64,000 nt of DNA from positions 77,040,948 through 77,104,947 of the forward strand of contig OY754464.1 of assembly GCA_963575645.1 (NCBI GenBank). Direction: 5' to 3'. Source of the DNA: Xanthostigma xanthostigma. Taxonomy: Eukaryota > Arthropoda > Insecta > Raphidioptera > Raphidiidae. This document shows, piece after piece, positions 1,213 to 62,701 of this stretch; the first letter of the stretch is position 1, and each line of letters starts with the position of its first letter. The notes below the pieces were generated by a model, which saw only the letters and a list, made by a program, of their open reading frames with translations, did not search any database and was not told where the DNA came from. The position numbers and the translations under genes were made by a program.

Positions 1213-2140
1213 ATAAATAATAGAGATAGAGTGCGGGAGGTGAAACTTTTTTATTGAAAAGGACCCCGCACGGAACATATGGGAATTGGCCCTCGGTTAA
1301 AATCTTCCATACTCGGGAATATTATCCAAAAATCGACGCTGATCAAAAGTCTCCATGGGCACGAAGTCCGGAAATGCGATCCCGGGGAGTTATTATTATT
1401 TTGATTGCAATAAAAGTATACTTTTATTGCAATCAAAATAGGGAAAATGAGCAAATGCACCCGTCTCCTTGTGATATTCTATTATAGACATATCTACATC
1501 ACATAGATATATCATATACAGTATATATGTCGCCGGGATATTGTCAAACCCGTGATATTATAATTTCACTTAGTGAAATTATAATATCACGAATCTTTGT
1601 CAATCGTGATATTGTAATTTCACTAGTGAAATTACAAAATCACGGATTTGACAATATCCCGGCGACATATATACTGTATATGATATATCTATGTGATGTA
1701 GATATGTCTATAATAGAATATCACAAGGAGACGGGTGCATTTGCTCATTTTCCCTATTTTGATTGCAATAAAAGTATACTTTTATTGCAATCAAAATAAT
1801 AATAACTCCCCGGGATCGCATTTCCGGACTTCGTGCCCATGGAGACTTTTGATCAGCGTCGATTTTTGGATAATATTCCCGAGTATGGAAGATTTTAACC
1901 GAGGGCCAATTCCCATATGTTCCGTGCGGGGTCCTTTTCGCCTCTTTAAAAGCCTTTTTTTCAATTTCCGCTATCGCTTATAGTTTTTGAGTAATTGCCT
2001 AAAATCTAAGGGGCTTTTTTTTCATTTCGTTTTTTGTTAATAACAAATGCAATTTTTGTCGACGAAAAAAATAAAGAAACGTCTTTTAAGGAATCGAATA
2101 AGCTATTTTTTGAAGACTTGGATCTATTTGTCTCACGAAT
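1213..2140. mobile_element. Dispersed repeat interrupted by a 682-bp foldback
   Basis: Sequence flanking the foldback (AATAATAGAGATAGAG on the left; TTTCAATTTCCGCTATCGCT... through ATAAAGAAACGTC on the right) matches the continuous copy at 13405-13690. That copy therefore shows the uninterrupted state. Confidence 0.75.
1257..1938. repeat. 682-bp near-perfect palindrome made of nested palindromes
   Basis: Positions pair symmetrically about 1597.5 over the whole length (AAAAGGACCCCG at 1257; CGGGGTCCTTTT ending 1938). Each arm holds a perfect 42-bp palindrome (1398-1439 and 1756-1797, centre AGTATACT). The middle holds two more: 1551-1591 around TTTCACTTAGTGAAA and 1605-1644 around TTTCACTAGTGAAA, separated by a 13-nt loop. 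Frames in this region are only palindrome shadows. It behaves as a foldback insertion; no target duplication is evident. Confidence 0.9.
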
Positions 2141-2593
2141 CTCATCTTGACTAGGCTAATGCCTTTTCCACCATCTGTACAGTCGCTCATTCACTGTACA
2201 GGGTTAATAACAAATTTGTTGTACAATAAATTACATTCGCAGGTGGTTATGACTTGGTAGGTACACAGCGAAGTGATGTGAAGGTCATATCGCTTGTTAG
2301 TGTTCCCTGAGGATAATAGTGTCACTGTCGTTGCCTATCCCATTTGTAAACGTCATATTTTCATATTGCATACCTTTAGTCGCAGTTGGCAATCAGATTC
2401 TTATCATTTTATATGGTAGCCTGTCTTCTATTGATAAATCACATCGCTCTAAGCCAGTGGCAGCGCGTGAACATTTTAAATGGGTGTTCTATGCAGGATC
2501 AACAGGACGTACCACCAGTGCCGGATTAAGGCTCCTAGATGCCCTAAGCATTTCTTGCTTATGGGCCCCATCTCTAATATGTTCAGTTTATAA

Positions 2594-4025: not shown

Positions 4026-4175
4026 AAGCTCGGTGAGTGAAACCGAACTCAAACAGTTTGTTTTCCCGAGGTACAGTTTTCTGCCAAAATCGACCTTGCA
4101 AAAACGCGTCATGTTCGCGGAAAGTTTAATAATAATAATAATAATACATTTATTTTAATAACATGGTATTCAGGT

Positions 4176-4823
4176 ACGGAAGCCGGGTTGGCTCATTGGT
4201 GACTAGTGGAGTAGTGGCACCGCATACGGCCACTTCCAACATGTTAACGCGTGCACGCGTTAACATATTGTGTCCGTGTGCGGGATAAATGCAGATTTCT
4301 ACCTTATCCTGGAACGGTAATCTAGCTATCTCTGTCTTTTAACTGTCAAATTCTGTGAGCAGCGTTACTTTTTGCATTGAGGTTAGGCGTAGCTGAAGTT
4401 TTGTTTATAGTGAAATAAAGTAATAAATAATTTCAAAGTAAACATTAGAAATGAGTTTCGTTAAAATTAAAAATGAAAATGTTACCGTAAAATTACCTGT
4501 GATGAACAATAGACTCATTTCTAATGTTTACTTTGAAATTCTTTATTACTTTATTTCACTATAAACAAAACTTCAGCTACGTCTAACCTCAATGCAAAAA
4601 GTAACGCTGCTCACAGAATTTGACAGTTAAAAGACAGAGATAGCTCGATTACCGTTCCAGGATAAGGTAGAAATCTGCATTTATCCCGCACACGGATAAG
4701 GCAGAAATCTGCATTTATCCCGCACACGGACACATGTTAACGCGTGCACGCGTTAACATGTTGGAAGTGGCCGTGTGCGGTGCCACTACTCCACTAGTCA
4801 CCAATGAGCCGACCCGGCTTCCG
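4176..4823. mobile_element. 648-bp foldback element with 9-bp target duplication
   Basis: The arms (ACGGAAGCCGGGTTGGCTCA... on the left, its complement at the right end) are about 300 bp each with a small spacer near 4460-4505. TATTCAGGT flanks both sides (4167-4175 and 4824-4832). A 9-bp duplication with long terminal repeats suggests a Mutator-like MITE. Each arm contains CATGTTAACGCGTGCACGCG-type palindromes. The right arm has one internally duplicated segment ending in TTTATCCCGCACACG. Confidence 0.85.
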
Positions 4824-4877
4824 TATTCAGGTCAACCGACTGCACGCATCCACACAACGAATTACAAGTTTGCTTAC

Positions 4878-11270: not shown

Positions 11271-11621
11271 TACGCACGTTCACTTTTTTTAATGGCTTTT
11301 TGAAGCAGATTGAATTTTTTTTACTATAGTTTTTCTCGTACTTCTTATTCATCCTAATTCATCGGTTATATTCATAGCTGTGCAAAAGTCGACGGCTGTT
11401 AGTCATCTTAAATAACGTCATCCCATTCTGTCAGTGCTTGTTTTTGTACATCGCTAAACATAATTTGTTTTACTGAAACCGACATGAAAACCGTTTATCA
11501 GTCGCAACAGACATGCAATTTATTTCTCAGAATATTACTCTAGTAAAATGAGGTAAAACGTGGATTCCACAGAAACATCAAGTAGGCTATGGTCGATTTT
11601 TTTTATGAGGAACTATTGTTA

Positions 11622-12064
11622 GTCAGAGTGCCCATCGGCAAAAATTTTATTGACACATACTCTCCCCAAACTTTGTATATATGGCTTCATTAGTCCTAGT
11701 CTGACACCTATTTCCTTTTTCTTGATTTTGGAACGTTTTCCCTCTAAACTGTCTGACACCTCGAATATGTTCGATATATTCGAGGTGTCAGACATTTTAA
11801 ATGGTAGGTACATGTTATTTGTCAGAGAACATTATTTTAGCGTTTTGGTTGAAGTTTTTGAGCTATCCAATTAAAAAAACAAACAGTAACTATAAATTTC
11901 TACATGTCGTCAAAACGACATCTTTCGGAAAATTTAGAGGGAAAACGCCCCAAAATCAAGAAAAGTCATAGAGGAAATAGTTGTCAGACTAGGCCTAATG
12001 AAGCCATATACAAAGTTTGGGGAGAGTATGTGTCAATAAAATTTTTGCCGATGGGCACTTTGAC
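11622..12064. mobile_element. TA-flanked MITE family C, copy 1
   Basis: Inverted arms begin GTCAGAGTGCCC with TA on both sides. The central palindrome is GACACCTCGAATATGTTCGA-type. Other copies are at 25386-25870 and, as a half element, 42168-42478. Confidence 0.85.
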
Positions 12065-12214
12065 TATATGTTTAGTTAAAACTATTTTTCTTTATACCTC
12101 GATCGAATGTGCATAAAAAAATGAATTGCCAAAAAAACATAGATGAAACTTTTTCGTATTTCTTATTTGCTGATAGTAATAGTCTACCATATTTTAATTA
12201 TTTCGATTTTGCAC

Positions 12215-13345: not shown

Positions 13346-13404
13346 GTACTTTGTCAACAGGCGGGCGGAACCATATTTTCAACGTTAAATTAAAACTCTA
13401 AATA

Positions 13405-13690
13405 ATAGAGATATAGAGTCCGGGAGGTGGGACATTTAATTGGAAATTTTCTCCTCTTTAAGAACCTGTTTTTCAATTTCCGCTATCGCTTATAGTTTTT
13501 GAGTATTTGCCAAAAATCTGAAGAGCTTTTTTCTCTTTTTCGTTTTTTGTTAATAACAAATGCAATTTAAAAAAAAAAAAATAAAAAAAACGTCTTTTAC
13601 GGAATATTTTTCTGAACCGAATAAACTATTGTTCATATTTTTTGGAGGCTTGGATCTACTTTTCTCAAGAATCTCAGTTCTTGACTAAAC
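13405..13690. mobile_element. Dispersed repeat, uninterrupted copy (empty site of the 682-bp foldback)
   Basis: Colinear with 1213-1256 plus 1939-2140. The sequence TTTAATTGGAAATTTTCTCC here stands where the palindrome is inserted at 1257. Confidence 0.75.
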
Positions 13691-13698
13691 TAATAATA

Positions 13699-19737: not shown

Positions 19738-20372
19738 CGAAGCAAGTACGGTAGACCGTCTCAACAACTCGTCAGGGTCACGTGACCCTGACGCGTCAGA
19801 TCTGACGCGAGTTTAACAGTTTTTACCCATTACAAAAAAAGTGTACAACGCCGCTAAGAAGTTTTCACTTCAAAAAAACTTCGAGTCGCAGTGCGAAACC
19901 ATGTCAACAGTATAGTACATTTGCTAATACAGGCAGCGTGGCTTTATTATGTGAACTTTACCCTTTCGTTTTTGGATAAAATAAAAATTTTAATCCCTTA
20001 ATACATCCCCTAAAATATTTTTTTTCTTAATTTAAATAATACTATCAATTTACCAAATTAAATTCACCCTTCCTGTAAATCCATGTCTAACTACAAACTA
20101 ACGTTTTTATAAAATTTTTAAGTTCGGTCCTGTCGGGCCGATTTTAATAAAATTTTAGCAGCACATTTTTATCTTTACTAATGGGTTAAATTTCAATTTT
20201 GAAACGATTCAGTGAGTTTTTTCGGTATTTTTGGTCTCAAAAATATTATTCAATCCCTATTCAACCCCGATTGGGCCCATTTTAAATAGGTTTCGTTCGG
20301 TGATGGATTTCAATATGTGCTCCAAATTTCGTTAAAAAAATTAACTCCTTCGAAAGTTATAGCCCGTACATA

Positions 20373-21745: not shown

Positions 21746-21797
21746 TAAAGTATAATTATATCAATTACTTATTTAAGTGTGTGAGATCCTGGATGAT

Positions 21798-22076
21798 GAT
21801 ATAGTAAGTTGTTGTTTTTAGAGGAAGAAGGATCATAGAAAACTATCAAGACGAAATTTTTATTTTTCGCAACGTTTCGTGTTGTAATTAACACTTCATC
21901 AGGCGATCTACAAACATTAATACTAATGAATTTATTTGTGAGATTCATTAGTATTAATGTTTGTAGATCGCCTGATGAAGTGTTAATTACAACACGAAAC
22001 GTTGCGAAAAATAAAAATTTCGTCTTGATAGTTTTCTATGATCCTTCTTCCTCTAAAAACAACAACTTACTATATC
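21798..22076. repeat. 279-bp perfect-armed foldback with hammerhead-like core
   Basis: Arms of about 133 bp appear identical (GATATAGTAAGTTGTTG... / complement) around a short loop at about 21930-21945. Each arm carries CTGATGA (21972-21978), a GTGTT/AACAC stem (21980-21984 with 21991-21995) and GAAAC (21996-22000). Confidence 0.88.
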
Positions 22077-22493
22077 AATTACTTTTCGAAAATTTTAACT
22101 AGTGCAGAGTATGTGGGTTAGTAGGTCAAATTTTAAGTTTTCTGAGAAAATCGCCTATGACGGACGGACACGTAAGTTATTTTATAAAGGCTCCGTTTCC
22201 GTCTTTTGTGGTACGGAACCGTAAAAAGGACAGAAAACAATTTACATTGGCGAAAGAAAGATGAATGTAACAACTTAAGTTAATGTTTGTTGTCAACCCG
22301 CATAATTCAAGTGAATCGTGACACCTCCAAGAATCACGACGCAAGCCATTAAACGCCAGACTTACGTAGATAGTGGTTTACACATTTCCATTTTGCCTCT
22401 CATAATTTATTTTCAAATATTATAAAGCAGTGAGCCGAGAAACCAAAATAGTGTACAGTGGAATTCACTTAAACCGAATTCTCTTATAATGAA

Positions 22494-24763: not shown

Positions 24764-25385
24764 TGTTGTAATACATTTTATTGTTGACGCCATTAATGTG
24801 TTCTAAAAAAATACTCTCTAATAAAGGGGTTATTATTATTATTATTATTATTAACACGCGGAGGCGCGTGGACTGGCATTTGGCAAGCGAGCGATATTTT
24901 ATCGTGAGCTTACAAAATTAGAAAAACTGTTTTTCAAACAAATTCAAAATATTTTCAAACTTTATATCTGATAGTTCAATTTTCTAGCATTTTATTCCGC
25001 CTCGCGCACCCCACTTCGGTGGTTTGTAGGAGGCGGCTGTAAAGAGTTGTGTAAGTATCATTTACGTCGAGCAAAAAAAATGCGTTGTTTACGTTTGAAG
25101 AAATGTATACACTCCTAAATAAAATTTAAGCTTGTTTGAATTCGCGACCCATAACTCCAATATCCGACAATCCCTCTGACTTGAACGCCTTAACTCCTGG
25201 TCATTTCCTTATGGGCGACTCACCCAGCGCCCTTTTGGAGCAAAATCTTGCAGAAGTCAAAGAAAACTGACTGGCCCGATGGCAGCGTATACACAACATT
25301 TTTTGAACAATTTTATATCAATTTGTCTTTTTCTTTATGTCCAAAAGTATTAATAAACCATTTAATATGTATCAAAAAACTTGTA

Positions 25386-25870
25386 GTCAGAGTGCACGTC
25401 GGCAAAAATTTTATTGATACATACTCTCCCCAAACTTTGTATATGGCTTCATTAGGCCTAGTCTGACACCTATTTCCTCTATGACTTTTCTTGATTTTGG
25501 GGCGTTTTCCCTCTAAAGTTTCCGAAAGATGTCGTTATGACGACATGTAAAAATTTATAGATACTGTTTGTTTTTTTTAATTGGATAGCTTAAAAACTTC
25601 AACCAAAACGCTAAAATAATGTTCTCTGACAAATAACATGAACCAATTAAAATGTCTGACACCTCGAATACGTTCGACATATTCGAGGTGTCACACATTA
25701 TAAATTTTTACATGTCGTCATAACGACATCTTTCGAAAACTTTAGAGGGAAAACGCCCCAAAATCAAGAAAAGTCATAGAGGAAATAGGTGTCAGACTAG
25801 GCCTAATGAAGCCATATACAAAGTTTGGGGAGTGTATGTATCAATAAAATTTTTGCCGACGGGCACTGAC
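25386..25870. mobile_element. TA-flanked MITE family C, copy 2
   Basis: Full inverted arms (GTCAGAGTGCACGTCGG... / complement), TA at 25384-25385 and 25871-25872, and a central GACACCTCGAATACGTTCGA palindrome. Confidence 0.87.
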
Positions 25871-26039
25871 TATTTTTTAATATAGGTTAAAATTAAAACC
25901 ATGAAAACGAGATCTATTAGGTCTTTATTACGATTGAATTGAGAAGTTTGTTCACCCTGCTGGATCCCGCAAATACCGGGATTGAAATTATCTTGCGGGT
26001 TTGCATTCCCTAGTCTAGACTGTAGACACAGCTCGTGAA

Positions 26040-42148: not shown

Positions 42149-42167
42149 GTAATCATTCCTTATTTAT

Positions 42168-42478
42168 TAATAGTCTGACACCTCGAATATGTTCGCATAT
42201 TCGAGGTGTCAGACATTATAAATGGTTCATGTTATTTGTCAGAGAACATTATTTTAGCGTTTTGGTTGAAGTTTTTAAGCTATCCAATTAAAAAAACAAA
42301 CAGTATCTCAAAATTTTTACATGTTCTCAAAATGACATCTTTCGGAAAATTTAGAGGGAAAACGCCCCAAAATTAAGAAAAGTCATAGAGGAAATAGGTA
42401 TCAGACTAGGCCTAATGAAGCCATATACAAAGTTTGGGGAGAGTATGTGTCAATAAAATTTTTGCCGGATGGCACTCT
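42168..42478. mobile_element. MITE family C, half element in GUSB intron 1
   Basis: Begins at the central palindrome (TCTGACACCTCGAATATG) and continues to the GGCAC right end. The left half is missing. It starts 20 nt after the exon 1 donor. Confidence 0.8.
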
Positions 42479-42522
42479 GGCTTTAATCACAACGGAACGT
42501 CATTTTTAATGGCTAATAAATA

Positions 42523-47227: not shown

Positions 47228-48092
47228 ATCAAATAAATAAAATTATCGACCAATTTTTTTCAGACTATATATTGACAAAAATAATAATAAAATTATAAAT
47301 CAATATTTCACTAGATGACGTTTCGATCCGGATTTGGATTTTCTTCAGAAATAATCTAAAAAATATAAAAATTAATTAGTATTATCTACTTATTTTCTAA
47401 TAGAATGGAGTTTGAATGATTGAAATATTAATGAAAAATTATATTTTTTAGATTATTTCTGAAGAAGGTCCAAATCCGGATCGAAACGTCATCTAGTGAA
47501 ATATTGATTTATAATTTTATTTCTATTTTTGTCAATATACAGGGTGAGGCACATAAAGTGTTACAGAGCAATAGCACTCAAACTATTGATCATATCCAAA
47601 AATGTTTCAGACAAAGGTTTTAGTGTTCGAGAAGGCCGTCATACTGGAACACCCTATTTTTTTATCGGTGGAGGCGCTGACGCTACTAATTAATTTTTAT
47701 ATTTTTTAGATAATTACTGAAGAAGATCCAAATCCGGATCGAAACGTCATCTAGTGAAATATTGATTTATAATTTTATTATTATTTTTGTAGGTTGCTGA
47801 ATTCGTCTTAAAATCGCCAATAATGTCATCGAAAAAAAAATACATGGTTTCGTTTAAAAAAGTGAAGTTGACCTTGACGTAGCTTCAGCGCCTCCACCGT
47901 TAAAAAAATTGGGTGGTCCAGTATGACGACCTTCTCGTACACTAAAACTTTTGTCTGAAACATTTTTGGATATGATCAATAGTTTGAGTGCTATTGCTCT
48001 GTAACACTTTATGTGCCTCACCCTGTATAGTCTGAAAAAAATTGGTCGATAACTTTATTTGAAGAGTTCTATTCAGACGTTTATCAAAGATT
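47228..48092. mobile_element. Inverted-repeat element IR1, copy 2, split by a MITE
   Basis: The left arm begins near ATCGACCAATTTTTTTCAGA. The right arm ends TCAAAGATTTGT at about 48092, 20 nt before GUSB exon 3. Hammerhead-like cores lie at about 47460-47492 and, complementary, 47315-47350. Confidence 0.75.
47540..48025. mobile_element. TA-flanked MITE with about 145-bp inverted arms, inside IR1
   Basis: CAGGGTGAGGCACATAAAGT and its complement at the ends, TA at 47538-47539 and 48026-48027. Removing it restores the GTCAATATATAGTCTG junction. Its centre (about 47686-47795) is a second copy of the adjacent IR1 arm. Confidence 0.88.
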
Positions 48093-48111
48093 TGTATTAT
48101 TAATGTTACAG

Positions 48112-48581
48112 TACATTAACGGGGAATCAGCTATGACCCATGAAATCGGCCACCTGCCTTTCGAGAAAGAAGTAACAGAGTTTCTGAAATTTGGTTCCGA
48201 CAATTTGTTGAGTGTAGCTTGCAGTAATAGTCTATGGAACTATACTGTACCACAAGGATCAGAAAACCACATTCATACTGACGATGGTGATGTCGTAACG
48301 CAAACATACACATTTGATTTCTTCAACTATGCCGGTATCCACCGTCCGGTTGTCTTATATACAACCCCTAAAGTTTATATCGACGACATAACAATAGCTA
48401 CAACTGAAATATTCGACAATGGCAGCGCCGAACTAACCTACGACATTACGGTGGGCGGTCTATACAACTTGGATGAATATATTTGTCAGTTAATTTTGAT
48501 CGACGCAGACAATGCAGATGTTGCGTCTGTGAATTCGACGGCATGCGAGGGAACGATTTTAATTGAAAACGCCAATCTTTG
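48112..48581 (+). CDS. GUSB: Beta-glucuronidase exon 3: end of jelly-roll and immunoglobulin-like beta-sandwich
   Basis: This 470-nt exon (phase 0 in, phase 2 out) follows an AATGTTACAG acceptor and precedes GTAACT. It encodes YINGESAMTHEIGHLPFEKE, a run with SVACSNSLWNYTVPQG (one NYT glycosylation sequon), then FDFFNYAGIHRPVVLYTTP and YIDDITIATTE. These are strong GUSB signatures (FDFFNYAGxxRxVxLYTTP). The second half forms the beta-sandwich (Glyco_hydro_2). The intron right up to about 20 nt before this exon is made of a repeat (47228-48092), so branch point and polypyrimidine tract are at the repeat edge. Confidence 0.93.
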
Positions 48582-48679
48582 GTAACTGAATATTTCGACA
48601 ATTCAATTAAATATGTTACGTGCCTTTTTAAATTGATCGCACAAAATAGAAAAAAAACGAGAGTGCTTTAGACCACACG

Positions 48680-52718: not shown

Positions 52719-54031
52719 AAGAGCTGGCTACGGAGAAAATGGGTGACTCGGTGTAGAGCTGAAAATTTGCAGAATAATAGGAGATAGTACAAGTAAGTAG
52801 GGAAAAAATTGCCAGAAGGCTAGGCGGGAGATAAAGAGCCGCCAGAAGGCGCTAATGTTGCGAAAAATCAGTGCACTTCTGGCAATTTCTATACTTATTC
52901 TGTAATTCAAAACTAGATTATATATTGTATATATTATACATTATATAGTTATAAGGGCATACTGAAAATTTAAACATAATAATTAGGTACATTCGGCAAA
53001 TATTCAAAATTATTAATGACATTTTGATAGAAATAAAATTAAATAATATAATAAAATTACGTTGTTATAACAACGTAATTTTATTAATGAAAATATATGA
53101 CGATTAATTTTATTTCTATCAAAATGTCATTAATAATCTATACTAATATATAAAGCTGAAGAGTTTGTTAATTTGTTTGTTTGTTTGTTTGAACGTGCTA
53201 ATCTCAGGAACTACTGGTTCAAATTGAAAAAAAAAAATTTTTGTTGGATAGCCCATTTACCGAGAAAGGCTATAGGCTATATAATATTACGCTACGACCA
53301 TTAGGAGCGGAGCTTTAATGAAAAATGTTGCAAAATGTGTCTCAAAAATAAGCTTCTATTCATGTGAAATGCACTAACTAGATATACTCATATTAGTGAT
53401 GCACCAACACAACTTCAGGTAGATCAATCGGTAGAGTATGCGTCTGTCAATATCAGGGTCGTGGGTCCGAGCCCCACGTTGGGCAAATATATTTTTATTT
53501 TTTTTTTATTTTTTACATTTCTTTCTTCTAAGGCTTACATTTAAATTTATTTTAATTTTATTTAATTCATTTAAAAAAAATTATTAGTTAAAAAAGAACT
53601 TTTGAACGGTAACTCCGATCATCATAAAATTTGGACACAACATTCATTTCGATAAACTAAGATGAATGTGTGCACTCATGACCCTTCCTTCCCCATTCGT
53701 TCTTTTGCACCCGGTGAAACCGGGCGGGACTGCTAGTTTTGAATATTTGTCGAATGTAATTATTATATCATGTTTGAATTTTCAGAATGCCCTCATAACT
53801 ATATAATGTATAATATATATAATATATAATCTAGTTTTGAATTACAGAATAAGTATAGAAATTGCCAGAAGTGCACTGATTTTTCGCAACATTAGCGCCT
53901 TCTGGCGGCTCTTTATCTCCCGCCTAGCCTTCTGGCAATTTTTTCCCTACTTACTTGTACTATCTCCTATTATTCCGCAAATTTTCAGCTCTGCACCGAG
54001 TCACCCATTTTCTCCGTAGCCAGCTCTCCGT
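52719..54031. repeat. Long foldback (about 350-bp arms) with a Helitron inserted in the right arm
   Basis: TAAGAGCTGGCTACGGAG at the left pairs with CTCCGTAGCCAGCTCTC at the right. Arms match through GCCAGAAGGCTAGGCGGGAG and TAATGACATTTTGATAGAAA to a central AAATTACGTTGTTATAACAA palindrome near 53055-53082. The Helitron occupies 53137-53736. The two 60-codon ORFs are mirror images. Confidence 0.85.
53137..53736 (+). mobile_element. Non-autonomous Helitron H1, 600-bp copy with tRNA-like segment
   Basis: TCTATACTAATATATAAAGC after A; TGCTAG before T. The tRNA-like block is at about 53420-53485. The foldback arms on either side show the precise A|T insertion point. Confidence 0.9.
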
Positions 54032-55609: not shown

Positions 55610-56120
55610 TCTAAGATCAATTTATGGCATAGGCTGTCGCCAAAAATTTTTTTGCCACAGGCTGTCGCCCAAAATTTTTTTGTCAACACAAAACTTTTTA
55701 ACACGTGCTTTTGGGTTAGTTTTCAAATATTCATGTGTTTTGGTACAGGCTCGCGGCGCAACTAACCGTTATTTATTTACACAAAACATTTTTGCATTTG
55801 ATTTTGGAATAGTTTTAAAAGCTTGGTGTGTTTTGATGAACGCCTGCCAAATTACTATAACAGGTGTACGCGAAACATTTTTGAATGTGTTTTTTGAATA
55901 GTTTTCCAAAATCGATGTGTTTTAAATCTGCTGTCGTTAAGAACACTACTCGGCTCTTCGAGCCTCGTAACAATAATTCAAGTACAAAATTCAGGCCTGC
56001 GGCCTTCATAATTGTAGTTTTTCTGAAACAAAACATGTTTGCATGTATTTTTGGCGTAACTTTAAAAAGTTTGTGTGCTTTAATATACTCCTGCACAATT
56101 GCAATAACTGCTTTTTTTAA
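55610..56120. repeat. Degenerate long-period repeats
   Basis: A motif of the form CAAAACATTTTTGCATTT...TTTAAAA-GCTTGGTGTGTTTT...CCTGC recurs about four times with strong divergence (near 55686, 55780, 55875, 56026). GGCTGTCGCC-AAAATTTTTTTG is also doubled at 55633-55680. The ORFs across it are repeat translations. Confidence 0.55.
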
Positions 56121-56152
56121 GAATTTTCGCTTCCCCCCTTCTCGTTTCACTG

Positions 56153-56750
56153 CGAAAAAATTAGCATACCCCTTTATCGTTCACCCGGTAACACAATTCG
56201 CATACCCCTATATCGTTCAACCCGGAATTGTTTTTTTTAAAACTCCCCCTTTAACCCTTCCTGTTTCACTGCGAAACAATTCGCATACCCCTTTATCCTT
56301 CACCCCGGTTTTACAATTCGCATACCCCTTTATTTTTCACTCCGGTATTACAATTCGCATACCCTTTTATCTTTCACCCCGGTATTACAAATCACATACC
56401 TCTTTTCCGTTCACTCTAGTATTGCAATTCGCATACCCCTTTTTCGTTCACCCCGGAATTGTTTTTTAAAAACTTCCCCTTTAATCCTTCACGTTTCACT
56501 GCGAAGCAATTCGCATACCCCTTTATCCTACACCCTGGTATTACAACTCGCATACCCTTTTATCCCTTGCCCCGGTATTACAATTCGCATACCCCTTTAC
56601 TTTTCACCCCGTTATTACAATTTGCATACCCCTTTATCGTTCACCCCGGTATTACAATTCGCATACCCCTTTATCGTTCACCCCGAAATTGTTTTTTTTA
56701 AAAACTCCTCTTTAACACTTCCCGTTTCACTGCGAAACAATTCGATGCAT
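56153..56750. repeat. Minisatellite: 37-bp units in a higher-order array
   Basis: About twelve units of a 37-bp sequence containing AATTCGCATACCCCTTTATC and TTCACCCCGGTATTAC are punctuated by a roughly 45-bp spacer (TTTTTTTAAAAACTCC... to GTTTCACTGCGAAA) seen about four times. The last two composite periods are about 228-233 bp. The 194- and 80-codon ORFs are translations of this array. Confidence 0.92.
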
Positions 56751-57841: not shown

Positions 57842-60800
57842 TTAATTTTCTAACACTTCATTATAGACGACATTCTCGGTATAAAACGTAGTACTTCCCT
57901 CGATGAGTTTCCCTTGTTTTGTCGCTTCTAAAATTTGAACGCGTACGGCGTGCATTGCGCGCGCTCTCGAAAACGCGACGTAGAGTTGACCATGCGCGAA
58001 TACCGGCTTCGAAAGATATATGCCCACTTTTTCGAGGGTCGATCCCTGGGCTTTATTTATTGTCATCGCGTAGGCAGGACGAATGGGAAACTGACGCCTT
58101 TTCAATTTAAAAGGCAAGTCGCTATCGGCCGACGTCAGATCCAATCTCGGAATAAAAACTCTGTTGCCTTCAAACCGTCCCGTTATTATCTCTGCATCTA
58201 TGCAGTTTTCCATCAAGTTTTTAACAATCAGTCTGGTACCGTTACACAGACCTTGTTTCACTTGCAGATTCCTCAGCAGCATTATTATTGCGCCGGTTTT
58301 CAACGTCAATTTGTGAGGCGGCAGTCCGGATGGCGTAATTGAATTGAGAAATTCGACGCTGAAATTGCTCTGTTCTTCCTCATCGTCGGTCACTATCGAA
58401 TCCACGCTGTTGTAGGATTTTGCCAGACCGTCGAGCGAATCTATAATTCTGTCGTTCAGTAACGTGCAGTCGTCATTTCGCGGACACAATATGGCGCTCT
58501 TATGGATCGATCCGTCGGTCGCCAATGCATTTTCGCCGAATATCTCCGATACTACGTCGTCTACCATGCACACGTCCGGTATAGCAATGGTATCGTTCGG
58601 TAAATCGACGTGGTTTTCGAGTTTTCCTTCTCCGAGTTCCCGAAGCCAGTTCGTAAATTCCGTTTCGTCTGCGTTCGCTCGCATATTCCTCGTGAGTGAG
58701 AACGTTTTGAATTCCGTCCATAAGTGACAGTTCTTGACGCAATTTTCCACCACTTTCGTCCTGTTTGCGTTGCGGACGACAGGCAAGCACTGGCGAAAAT
58801 CACCACCGAGAAGGACGACTTTTCCGCCGAATGGTCTTTCAACGCGCGTTATGTCTCTTAGTACTCTGTCGACGGCTATCAGAGACGCGGCCGGTGCCAT
58901 GGTAATTTCGTCCCAGATGATTATTTTTGCCGCGTTGATTGCTTGTGCCTGAGCTGTGTCGGGCTTTAAACCGGAAGTCGACGTGTCCAATAACGGTACC
59001 GGCAGTTTGAACTGTGAATGGACTGTCCGGCCTCCCTTCAACAGCAGCGACGCAATTCCTGTCCACGCAACCGCGATTACGGAAATGTTCATTCCTCTCA
59101 AGGTGCTGATGAGTGCGTTATACAAAAACGTTTTTCCAGCGCCGCCTACACCGTCTAAATAAAAGTACCGCGCGCGTATTTCGGAGTTTTCGACTGTTCT
59201 CATCACTTCCGCGAAGATTTTCAGCTGATCTGCGTTCAGCATTTCCCTCATGCGATCGGCTTCCGTACGCTCGATCTCCGCATTAAAATCGTCTTCGGGA
59301 CGTTGTGCAACGTGCACCCTCGGTTGTTCAAATCCGAAATCCGTTAATCTACGTCCGTGCAAGGCGAGGTTGTTCTGAATATCGCTCAGAGCTAAATCTT
59401 CCGCGACCCGTCTTTCGTGAATTCGCGCGAAATCGTCGATTAGATCGTCCTTGAACTGCTCCCACAGTCGTTGGGGCTCGTCGAGTTCGCAAAAAATCAT
59501 GATGGTTGCGAACAGAGATCTTAACTGTCGAGGCATTGCGAACGTCGCCGCTTCTCGCATGCACCTCGTCCATTCGCTATCGTCGGCCAACAGATTTCTT
59601 TGCCTCGCAGCATCTTTAAATGTCGGACACACCTCGCCGTTTACCGTTCGCACATCCTCGAATGATGTGGCTCCTTTCACGTGTAATAATAAAAGTCGAA
59701 GATAATATCTTTCCTCGTCTCGAGGGTTGACAGTGTACATACGCGAAATCGTGTCGACGAACCGTCTTCGACTTCTCCAAGCTTTTTCGGTAAATACAAA
59801 ATGCGTCGGAATCTCAGTATAAAGATATTCTCTGGCAGCAGGATTTACTATGTTTAATTTGAACCAAGCCGTTAGCGTCGTCTCTCCCGCGGCTGCCCTT
59901 TCTACGGCGTGCTGTTCGTTTCCCTCCCGAAAGTAAACGGCTTGTTGAAACGGAAGATGTACCGCCAGTCGTTTGATAACATGGCTTCTGTCATGCATCT
60001 TAAATTCGAAGATTCTCCACAACGCTTCCGGTGCGCTGACGTAGCGCGCGTCTACAAACGTTTCTAGTTCGTCCCAATTCAAAACCGCGTCTTCGTTACC
60101 GATCTGTACGCAAGCGCAATCGTGTCCTTTGTACACATACTTGCATATGTACTTGACACTCTTTATCGATGAACAAATTTCCACATTTATGTGCGCGTTG
60201 TATTTCCTCAACAGCCATTTGTTATACGGCACGACGTACCTGTTGTCGAGTTCGTGTCCTCTGACATGAACAGTGCGACCCGTGTCGCGTCGTTTATATT
60301 TCGGGTATCCGTTTTCGTTGACCGCGGTCTCATTCCTAAATTCTTTAGGGAACTCCTTGCTACATTTACCATCACTCATACACGGAGAGTTGGGAGCAAG
60401 TGTGCCGCAGGGTCCGTGTATCATCGCGTTACTGACGATCGCGTAAAGTTCGGGTTCGGTGACCTGATCTGGAATCTCGGCGCAAACGATTCTGTCGACT
60501 TGTTCTGGTTCTCGCGGTTTGTCCTCGGCGCGTAGAATTATTAAAATATGACAATGTGGTAAGCCGCGCTTCTGAAACTCGATGACGTGTAGATACGCGA
60601 CCGGTACACCCAAAACGTGTTTGACTCGAATGTCATGTAAAAATTCCCCGAGTTTCAGGTGAAATACTCTGGCTGTCAAATCCGGTCTATGTTCAGCCTT
60701 TTGCCACGGTTCTAAATTTTCTGTAATCTCCCGCCATTTCGGATTACACGTAAACGTAATAAATAAATCTGGTCGACCGTACTTTGTCACGATTGTCATT

Positions 60801-62503
60801 GCATCTTGGAAATTCTGGTGCATATTCCTAGGGCTTCCTTCGAAAGTCGGCGGTAATATCACCATTCTTCCGACTCTTGCCTGATTTTCCACCGCGACAT
60901 CGTGCAAGTAGTCCATCAGTCCTTGATACAATTCAACGCGCAATTTTTGCTGATTTTCTCTAAAAAATTGAAGTCGTGAACCCTCGATTTTAACATACCA
61001 GTCCACCGCGAGCTGTTGCGTAAGTTTTCCGCCGTTTAATATCGCATTGAAATATCCTACTCTAATCGCGAAGTTATAACTGCAATATTGAAGCATCGAA
61101 ACGTTTTCTCTTCGCGCCGTTCTCTGCCTGTACGGCATATTCGGTTGCCATCCTGGTTCTCCTCTCGGAAATAGCAACGGATAGCTCATCGGATCGCAGT
61201 TTGGACTCAGTATCGATATTTTCCGAAACACTCCTCTTCGTGAGTATATCCTTATGTCGCGTTCCAAAGGGGGAGCTCCGTCGTCGCTTCGAAATACCAC
61301 GGCGACTTCGTTTGCCGTCGGTACGTTGTACCTACGTCGGTCGTGTCGACGATCCTCACGAATGCTCATAAATATTTCCGACGCGTCTCTTCCTTCAACT
61401 TCGGCTCGTCGATTTTCGTCGATTTCGACCTCTCTCAGGAATTTATACGCTTCGGCGAACGGGTTTATATCACGAAAGAGTCTATCTAGCGCTTCCACCA
61501 ATTCCGGAATACAGTCTTGGTTTTCTCGACGTTCCATTCTATGATTTAGTGCATCCGCTGAATCTAGAAAATATAGTTGACCGTAACTTACATTACCCAC
61601 GGGTCGTTCGATGTGGGCTATTTGGTGGTAGATCTGTCCGTGAATTCTGAAACAATAGGGTCCGCGTCCTGCAGGGGGAGCGATGTCGACACCTGTCGAT
61701 GCAAACGCCAACGCACTATTGTACTTCCTTATATTTTGTATAAAATTATTCGAGTGTTCATGACGTCCGCACAACAGATCCTCTAGTAATTGTGGGTAAT
61801 CTCTCGGCTCGAACGCTATCTTTCCTTTTCGACAACAGTGTGTAAATTTTCTGTCGACTGGCCGTTCGCCAGAAAAATGCTTCGCCCGACATTCGATACA
61901 AACGGCGTCCATGGCACCTAAATAGAACTCTTCGGCTACGTGTTCTAGCGCGGTGAGATAGGTTGCCACTTGACCTTCTCTTCGACGCTGTTCCCAGTCA
62001 TCTCGTTGTAGTTCTTCAATTACGCGAATTGCTACGTCGTTCTCTTCAACTACCATCGGTTCGACGATTGGTCGCGGTTGTGTCAACGCGGGCTCGTCTT
62101 GGACGGACACGGACTCATCGCTTGACACTTCTCGCTGTATCGGAGACGATTGCAGTACGTTCTGCATAGGTCCGTCCGGACGATGAGAGGGCCCCGCAAC
62201 TGGAGATTCGGGCCGCACGATAATATTCTCCAGTTGATCAACGACCGGTTTGTCAGCATGGCTAGAAATAGAAAGATTGTTATTTGTTCTTAATGATTGC
62301 ACGACGATCTGAGCTGGCTCTCCGGCGGCAGGAGTTGGTCTCGGCACATCCGGAACGACTGGATCTGCTTCCTGTTGTGCAGGCGGAATTTTAGGGACTT
62401 TCTGACTTCCTTTACGGGGAACATTGATGCTTCTCTTCTTTGGCGGCATTGTGTTGTTGGAATTCTGAAACAATAAAACAAACCCAAACACACGCACAGT
62501 CAA
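57842..62503 (-). CDS. Autonomous Helitron RepHel protein (HUH nickase plus PIF1-type helicase)
   Basis: A 1553-residue uninterrupted frame for rolling-circle (peel-and-paste) transposition. Residues 1-180 are Pro/Gln/Glu-rich linker. A Cys/His cluster follows (C202, C205, H222, C223, C224). The Rep domain has the HUH motif H650-C651-H652 (GLPHCHIL), the conserved HGPCG...GKCSKEFPK block at 696-720, and the paired tyrosines Y785 and Y789 in KYICKYVYKG. The helicase has Walker A GVGGAGKT (1118-1125), Walker B WDE (D1198/E1199), LLGGDFRQCLPV (1231), KAQGSTL (1484) and a final YVAFSRAR. All catalytic residues are present with no stops. The first Met at 62503 may be intronic: TTTATTGTTTCAG lies just before the second Met (residue 19, MPPKKRS), so translation could start there. 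GC content is visibly higher than in its surroundings, suggesting recent arrival. Confidence 0.95.
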   Translation of the reverse strand: MTVRVFGFVLLFQNSNNTMPPKKRSINVPRKGSQKVPKIPPAQQEADPVVPDVPRPTPAAGEPAQIVVQSLRTNNNLSISSHADKPVVDQLENIIVRPESPVAGPSHRPDGPMQNVLQSSPIQREVSSDESVSVQDEPALTQPRPIVEPMVVEENDVAIRVIEELQRDDWEQRRREGQVATYLTALEHVAEEFYLGAMDAVCIECRAKHFSGERPVDRKFTHCCRKGKIAFEPRDYPQLLEDLLCGRHEHSNNFIQNIRKYNSALAFASTGVDIAPPAGRGPYCFRIHGQIYHQIAHIERPVGNVSYGQLYFLDSADALNHRMERRENQDCIPELVEALDRLFRDINPFAEAYKFLREVEIDENRRAEVEGRDASEIFMSIREDRRHDRRRYNVPTANEVAVVFRSDDGAPPLERDIRIYSRRGVFRKISILSPNCDPMSYPLLFPRGEPGWQPNMPYRQRTARRENVSMLQYCSYNFAIRVGYFNAILNGGKLTQQLAVDWYVKIEGSRLQFFRENQQKLRVELYQGLMDYLHDVAVENQARVGRMVILPPTFEGSPRNMHQNFQDAMTIVTKYGRPDLFITFTCNPKWREITENLEPWQKAEHRPDLTARVFHLKLGEFLHDIRVKHVLGVPVAYLHVIEFQKRGLPHCHILIILRAEDKPREPEQVDRIVCAEIPDQVTEPELYAIVSNAMIHGPCGTLAPNSPCMSDGKCSKEFPKEFRNETAVNENGYPKYKRRDTGRTVHVRGHELDNRYVVPYNKWLLRKYNAHINVEICSSIKSVKYICKYVYKGHDCACVQIGNEDAVLNWDELETFVDARYVSAPEALWRIFEFKMHDRSHVIKRLAVHLPFQQAVYFREGNEQHAVERAAAGETTLTAWFKLNIVNPAAREYLYTEIPTHFVFTEKAWRSRRRFVDTISRMYTVNPRDEERYYLRLLLLHVKGATSFEDVRTVNGEVCPTFKDAARQRNLLADDSEWTRCMREAATFAMPRQLRSLFATIMIFCELDEPQRLWEQFKDDLIDDFARIHERRVAEDLALSDIQNNLALHGRRLTDFGFEQPRVHVAQRPEDDFNAEIERTEADRMREMLNADQLKIFAEVMRTVENSEIRARYFYLDGVGGAGKTFLYNALISTLRGMNISVIAVAWTGIASLLLKGGRTVHSQFKLPVPLLDTSTSGLKPDTAQAQAINAAKIIIWDEITMAPAASLIAVDRVLRDITRVERPFGGKVVLLGGDFRQCLPVVRNANRTKVVENCVKNCHLWTEFKTFSLTRNMRANADETEFTNWLRELGEGKLENHVDLPNDTIAIPDVCMVDDVVSEIFGENALATDGSIHKSAILCPRNDDCTLLNDRIIDSLDGLAKSYNSVDSIVTDDEEEQSNFSVEFLNSITPSGLPPHKLTLKTGAIIMLLRNLQVKQGLCNGTRLIVKNLMENCIDAEIITGRFEGNRVFIPRLDLTSADSDLPFKLKRRQFPIRPAYAMTINKAQGSTLEKVGIYLSKPVFAHGQLYVAFSRARAMHAVRVQILEATKQGKLIEGSTTFYTENVVYNEVLEN

Positions 62504-62701
62504 AACCTTTCACACGGATTCAAACTACCATTCACACCAAACAATCAAACGATTAGTGATTATATCTATTAATAAATCAGTAAAATTTTGTCATGTAGTA
62601 CACAGCCCGCAACTGATGTTAATTATCGTATTAAATGTTTCGATAAATGTTAGTTTTTGTAAAAAGCCAGTCAAAATTGGTTCAAGAAATTTTTCGATAC
62701 T
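62504..62701. other. Helitron 5' flank
   Basis: It lies between the ORF start and the neighbouring family P copy. It presumably contains the Helitron promoter and 5' TC end, but I cannot place them. Confidence 0.35.

Follow-up and report, generated by a model that had tools for sequence, protein, structure and literature searches.

A 674-bp fully palindromic element inserted between AAA and TTT without target-site duplication, probably a Spy-type MITE

Near the left end of the window (the whole stretch of Xanthostigma xanthostigma DNA analysed, 64,000 nt in length) lies a 674-bp element at 1261–1934 that is palindromic over its full length and in which no gene was seen. It has the form GGACCCC...GGGGTCC, with the terminal sequences GGACCCCGCACGG and CCGTGCGGGGTCC, and is bordered by the two halves of its target site, AAAA on the left (1257–1260) and TTTT on the right (1935–1938). 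When self-pairing was computed with the arms matched inward from 1256 and 1939, the dyad centre was recovered at 1597.5, where the original prediction of a palindrome at this locus had placed it. The 682 bp given in that prediction comprise the inserted unit of 674 bp and eight bases of target; these had been included because the target is self-complementary, so that the AAAA and TTTT runs also pair. The outer 288 bp of the left arm (1261–1548, plus strand) and of the right arm (1647–1934, minus strand) are identical, with no mismatches, and constitute terminal inverted repeats (TIRs) of the sort that both Spy elements and MITEs possess. Differences between the arms are confined towards the centre and amount to four substitutions and a one-base indel in a gapped alignment. 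Such perfect outer arms would be expected if the palindrome formed recently or if conversion between the arms has continued, and the data fit both.

Smaller palindromes are nested within the larger one, and the several levels of self-complementarity originally described are real, although some of the sizes require adjustment. Each arm contains the same perfect palindrome, which measures 44 bp (1397–1440 on the left and 1755–1798 on the right) and not 42 bp as first reported. The two central palindromes, both reported as 40 bp, are present at 1551–1591, where 20-bp arms enclose a one-base loop, and at 1605–1644, where 40 bp include one mismatched pair and 26 bp are perfect (1612–1637). These two sequences are related to each other and are separated by a short spacer (1592–1604) at the dyad centre. 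The element itself, its target halves, the spacer and the small palindromes are given without strand.

The element interrupts a host repeat, the left part of which is at 1213–1260 and the right part at 1935–2160 (both plus strand; the outer edge of the right part is approximate). An uninterrupted paralogue of this repeat is present in the same window at 13398–13692 (plus strand) and has an empty site, AAA/TTTT, at 13446/13447; alignment of the flanks thereby confirms the empty site that had been predicted within 13405–13690. Local matches of the host repeat to the paralogue show 78% identity for the right flank and 82% for the left. When the flanks are joined and aligned with 13398–13692 there is no gap whatsoever at the junction 13446/13447, and the gaps found elsewhere are small and away from the junction, the nearest being 13 bases to the left. 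The junction aligns as ...TTGAAAA/TTTTCGCC... with ...TTGGAAA/TTTTCTCC... in the paralogue, whose target reads GGAAA/TTTTC, and the left edge of the element is defined only to within one base, since this copy reads AAAA at a position where the paralogue reads GAAA. No host bases are duplicated at the junction and none are lost.

Target-site duplications (TSDs) were sought at both element ends. With boundaries placed symmetrically between 7 bp outside and 7 bp inside 1261 and 1934, direct repeats of every length are absent; when the two ends are moved separately, by as much as 6 bp each, none of at least 3 bp is present. A 3-bp TTT repeat occurs only 10 bp outside the element ends, and repeats of 2 bp are confined to positions deeper within the element or more distant from it. 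The element thus lies between AAA and TTT, without a TSD, at the one insertion available (n = 1). Its lack of a clear duplication in an AAAA/TTTT context had been correctly noted, the Spy signature in that combination having gone unrecognised. Of the two origins then offered, insertion as a unit agrees with the precise empty site, whereas growth at that point is unsupported, because growth on site would not explain why the ends coincide with AAA/TTT. AAATTT starts at 162 of 63,995 window positions (0.25%), and insertion at the exact centre of such a sequence is therefore unlikely without a target preference; the window is AT-rich, so a match to AAATTT by chance is possible. The locus provides a clean natural eukaryotic example of insertion without TSD, with the empty site in the same window. 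The element is a single-locus case, ordinary in kind and well preserved.

There is no second copy of the element in the 64-kb window. Scanning the window for GGACCCCGCACGG with up to three mismatches gives six matches, two of which are the element's own ends and four of which have three mismatches; shuffled sequences gave a mean of 1.92 matches, and six were reached in one of 100 shuffles. Searches with exact short patterns of the element found three loci in public viral contigs, with best local matches of 18 nt (100%) and 26 nt (88%) that we judge to be chance matches, and none in prokaryote genome contigs. Little can be concluded from the absence of the element from these collections, which do not comprise insect genomes and were searched for exact short patterns alone. 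A further scan of the window covered TIR pairs between AAA and TTT that match perfectly over 12 bases and are separated by at most 6 kb, together with 16-base pairs starting with G and having up to three mismatches; it returned many rows, which by eye are mostly offsets within larger inverted repeats. A short palindrome of about 200 bp at 2599–2799, within 2594–2804, lies between A and T runs (AAAAA/TTGG...CCAA/TTTTT) and could be a second insertion without duplication or, equally, one with a 4-bp AATT duplication.

The element appears to have no coding capacity. No stop-to-stop frame of at least 110 aa overlaps it, and the element frame submitted to the family search contains five stops, such that at 674 bp it has the short, non-coding, TIR-bounded build of a MITE. 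The window as a whole has 15 frames of at least 110 aa, of which six were set aside (three in the tandem-repeat area near 56 kb and three antisense to a Helitron frame). No transposase domain was found by Pfam in the nine of these 15 unspliced frames that were scanned.

We propose that the element at 1261–1934 is probably a Spy-type MITE, non-autonomous and palindromic throughout, within the PHIS superfamily (PIF/Harbinger-ISL2EU-Spy), and that a transposase produced elsewhere mobilised it as a unit. It is assigned to this type because long TIRs, the absence of a TSD and insertion at AAA/TTT together make up the published Spy signature, the assignment being based on one insertion and on Spy features as described. 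Spy transposons are described as having TIRs and as inserting within AAATTT without a TSD (PMC4482050; PMC11304231); their TIRs can be long, and they are present in Lepidoptera (PMC4482050; PMC11304231; PMC10257491), with reports from Lymantria, Hedya, Cydia and Helicoverpa (PMC11304231) and from lepidopteran rDNA (PMC10257491). The other PHIS groups are described as leaving TSDs, and the TIRs of the related ISL2EU group as usually starting with GG (PMC4482050). The active cgSpy of Colletes gigas is reported to have 467-bp TIRs and, in human cells, to make about 60% of its insertions at AAWTT, without TSD (PMC11304231). The element shares with Spy its TIRs, its AAATTT target and its lack of a TSD, and like cgSpy it has long TIRs; it differs in having no transposase gene and in consisting almost entirely of TIR.

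If the element is of the Spy type, its movement may be envisaged as follows. A Spy DDE transposase, supplied in trans by an autonomous element elsewhere in the genome, would recognise the element ends; the donor copy would be excised at GGACC...GGTCC, and the excised element would be joined to the cut AAA/TTT target without overhang repair. The palindrome may in essence consist of a single long TIR present twice in head-to-head arrangement, which could have arisen by internal deletion or by snap-back copying of an autonomous long-TIR element. Were this assignment correct, the Spy group would gain a long, fully palindromic, gene-less form. Among the titles and abstract openings listed for Spy, palindromic MITEs and hairpin siRNA, none describes a palindromic Spy MITE; according to its own account the PHIS survey is based on transposase homology and may have missed MITEs (PMC4482050), and the Spy survey, as described, counts elements with intact transposase (PMC11304231).

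Various kinds of inverted-repeat element abound in the window, some of which have TA or TATA at their ends, and the element at 1261–1934 could in principle be a MITE from a different cut-and-paste superfamily, with its TSD lost, or never made, at this copy. We consider this unlikely, since the junction is gapless relative to the empty paralogue and has no direct repeat, so that a lost duplication would have to have been removed exactly, and since the remaining PHIS groups are described as leaving TSDs (PMC4482050). A non-transposon origin, either as a one-off inverted duplication or as a captured hairpin inserted during double-strand-break repair, would agree with the finding of no further copy of the ends within the 64-kb window; however, the symmetry of the ends, a junction with neither loss nor filler, the placement at AAA/TTT and a build common to at least one other palindrome in the window, one that has a duplication (4175–4825), make such an event quite improbable. 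Palindromes are prone to misassembly, and arms identical over their outer 288 bp are compatible with a fold-back read or a mirrored contig end. This concern is lessened because the two flanks lack mirror symmetry and, when joined, reconstitute the host repeat, because the arms differ near the centre by the four substitutions and one-base indel, and because the empty site matches; we therefore think it very unlikely that the palindrome is an assembly artefact.

Two other kinds of known element bear comparison with the Spy-type reading. Helitrons also insert without TSD, and there is a Helitron-like open frame of 1555 codons in the window (57842–62509, minus strand), but Helitron termini are TC...CTRR without TIRs, whereas the element has GGACC...GGTCC ends and near full-length inverted repeats; a Helitron identity was rejected on these termini and has next to no probability. 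FB elements have long inverted repeats that make up much of the element, and in the descriptions that are available Galileo and Tetris (foldback or long-TIR elements) likewise have long inverted repeats forming a large share of their length. To our knowledge those FB, Galileo and Tetris types that are known leave target duplications, in contrast to the element at 1261–1934, which leaves none.

Cruciform extrusion or hairpin RNA, both raised in the original prediction, would be possible for any such sequence. The plus strand has a minimum free energy of −594.8 kcal/mol, which is no evidence of transcription because it is expected for any palindrome of such length. Rfam lists 19 matches at E values up to 1, all of them below the gathering score of their family; the best, to MIR6217 (1528–1667; E 7.2e-13), has 62.1 bits where a gathering score of 110 applies, and we read these matches as putative generic hairpin similarity. 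A comparison may be made with Made1, the source of mir-548 genes, which is described as a short, gene-less inverted-repeat element with the potential to form hairpin RNA. Made1 is also palindromic and is much shorter than the 674-bp element.

Nested palindromes are not unique to this element. Another is located at 4175–4825; its ends are TACGG...CCGTA and its duplication is TTCAGG (6 bp), or in an alternative reading its ends are ACGG...CCGT and its duplication is ATTCAGGT (8 bp). Both of its arms contain a perfect palindrome of 26–30 bp, and one arm also includes a 34-bp tandem duplication. The signature described for fungal IS3EU elements is a 6-bp TSD with TAYGG..CCRTA ends (PMC12730594), and under the 6-bp TTCAGG reading the 4175–4825 sequence fits an IS3EU-like element. 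Its best local alignments with the element at 1261–1934 have low raw scores (20 and 24), and the two are apparently unrelated.

In total, 23 inverted-repeat elements were chosen from 40 listed rows, the 17 omitted being sub-palindromes, alternative pairings and unchosen pairs, and these 23, one of which is the nested palindrome at 4175–4825, cover 17.6% of the 64,000-nt window. A third family is present in three copies (11620–12066, 25361–25891 and near 42162–42500), the last of which is truncated, with its left TIR apparently missing; all three copies contain a palindrome of about 55 bp that is imperfect and lies off centre. There is also a 281-bp palindrome at 21797–22077 whose two 135-bp arms are identical and enclose a loop of 11 bases, and a small perfect palindrome at 53049–53086 near the centre of a larger one.

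Perfect even palindromes of at least 22 bp number seven in the window, compared with a mean of 0.017 (and a largest count of one) in a null of 60 Markov-1 sequences of window length, and a chance origin of these small palindromes is therefore excluded. Six of the seven are within the 23 chosen inverted-repeat elements and one (19770–19793) is outside them. Independent cases are few, because the pairs in opposite arms are counted twice and because 53049–53086 belongs to a larger palindrome, near whose centre it lies. As a tentative and rather doubtful suggestion, small palindromes within arms may be a recurrent product of the formation or upkeep of long-TIR MITEs in this genome, whatever the superfamily, with three families sharing a hairpin-driven route. 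The families concerned would be the Spy-like element (44 bp per arm), the IS3EU-like element at 4175–4825 (26–30 bp per arm) and the three-copy family (about 55 bp, off centre and imperfect). Such a route to palindromes within palindromes could consist, for example, of snap-back copying followed by arm-to-arm conversion.

Three further features were noted in the right part of the window. The minus-strand frame at 57842–62509 has Helitron_like_N, PIF1 helicase and Pif1_2B domains and is apparently an uninterrupted Helitron protein frame. Near it, at 56112–56744, is a tandem array of 36–37 bp units organised in a 230-bp higher unit (CATACCCCTTTATCGTTCACCC...). An exon-like frame at 48031–48585 (plus strand) contains a glycosyl hydrolase family 2 sugar-binding domain.
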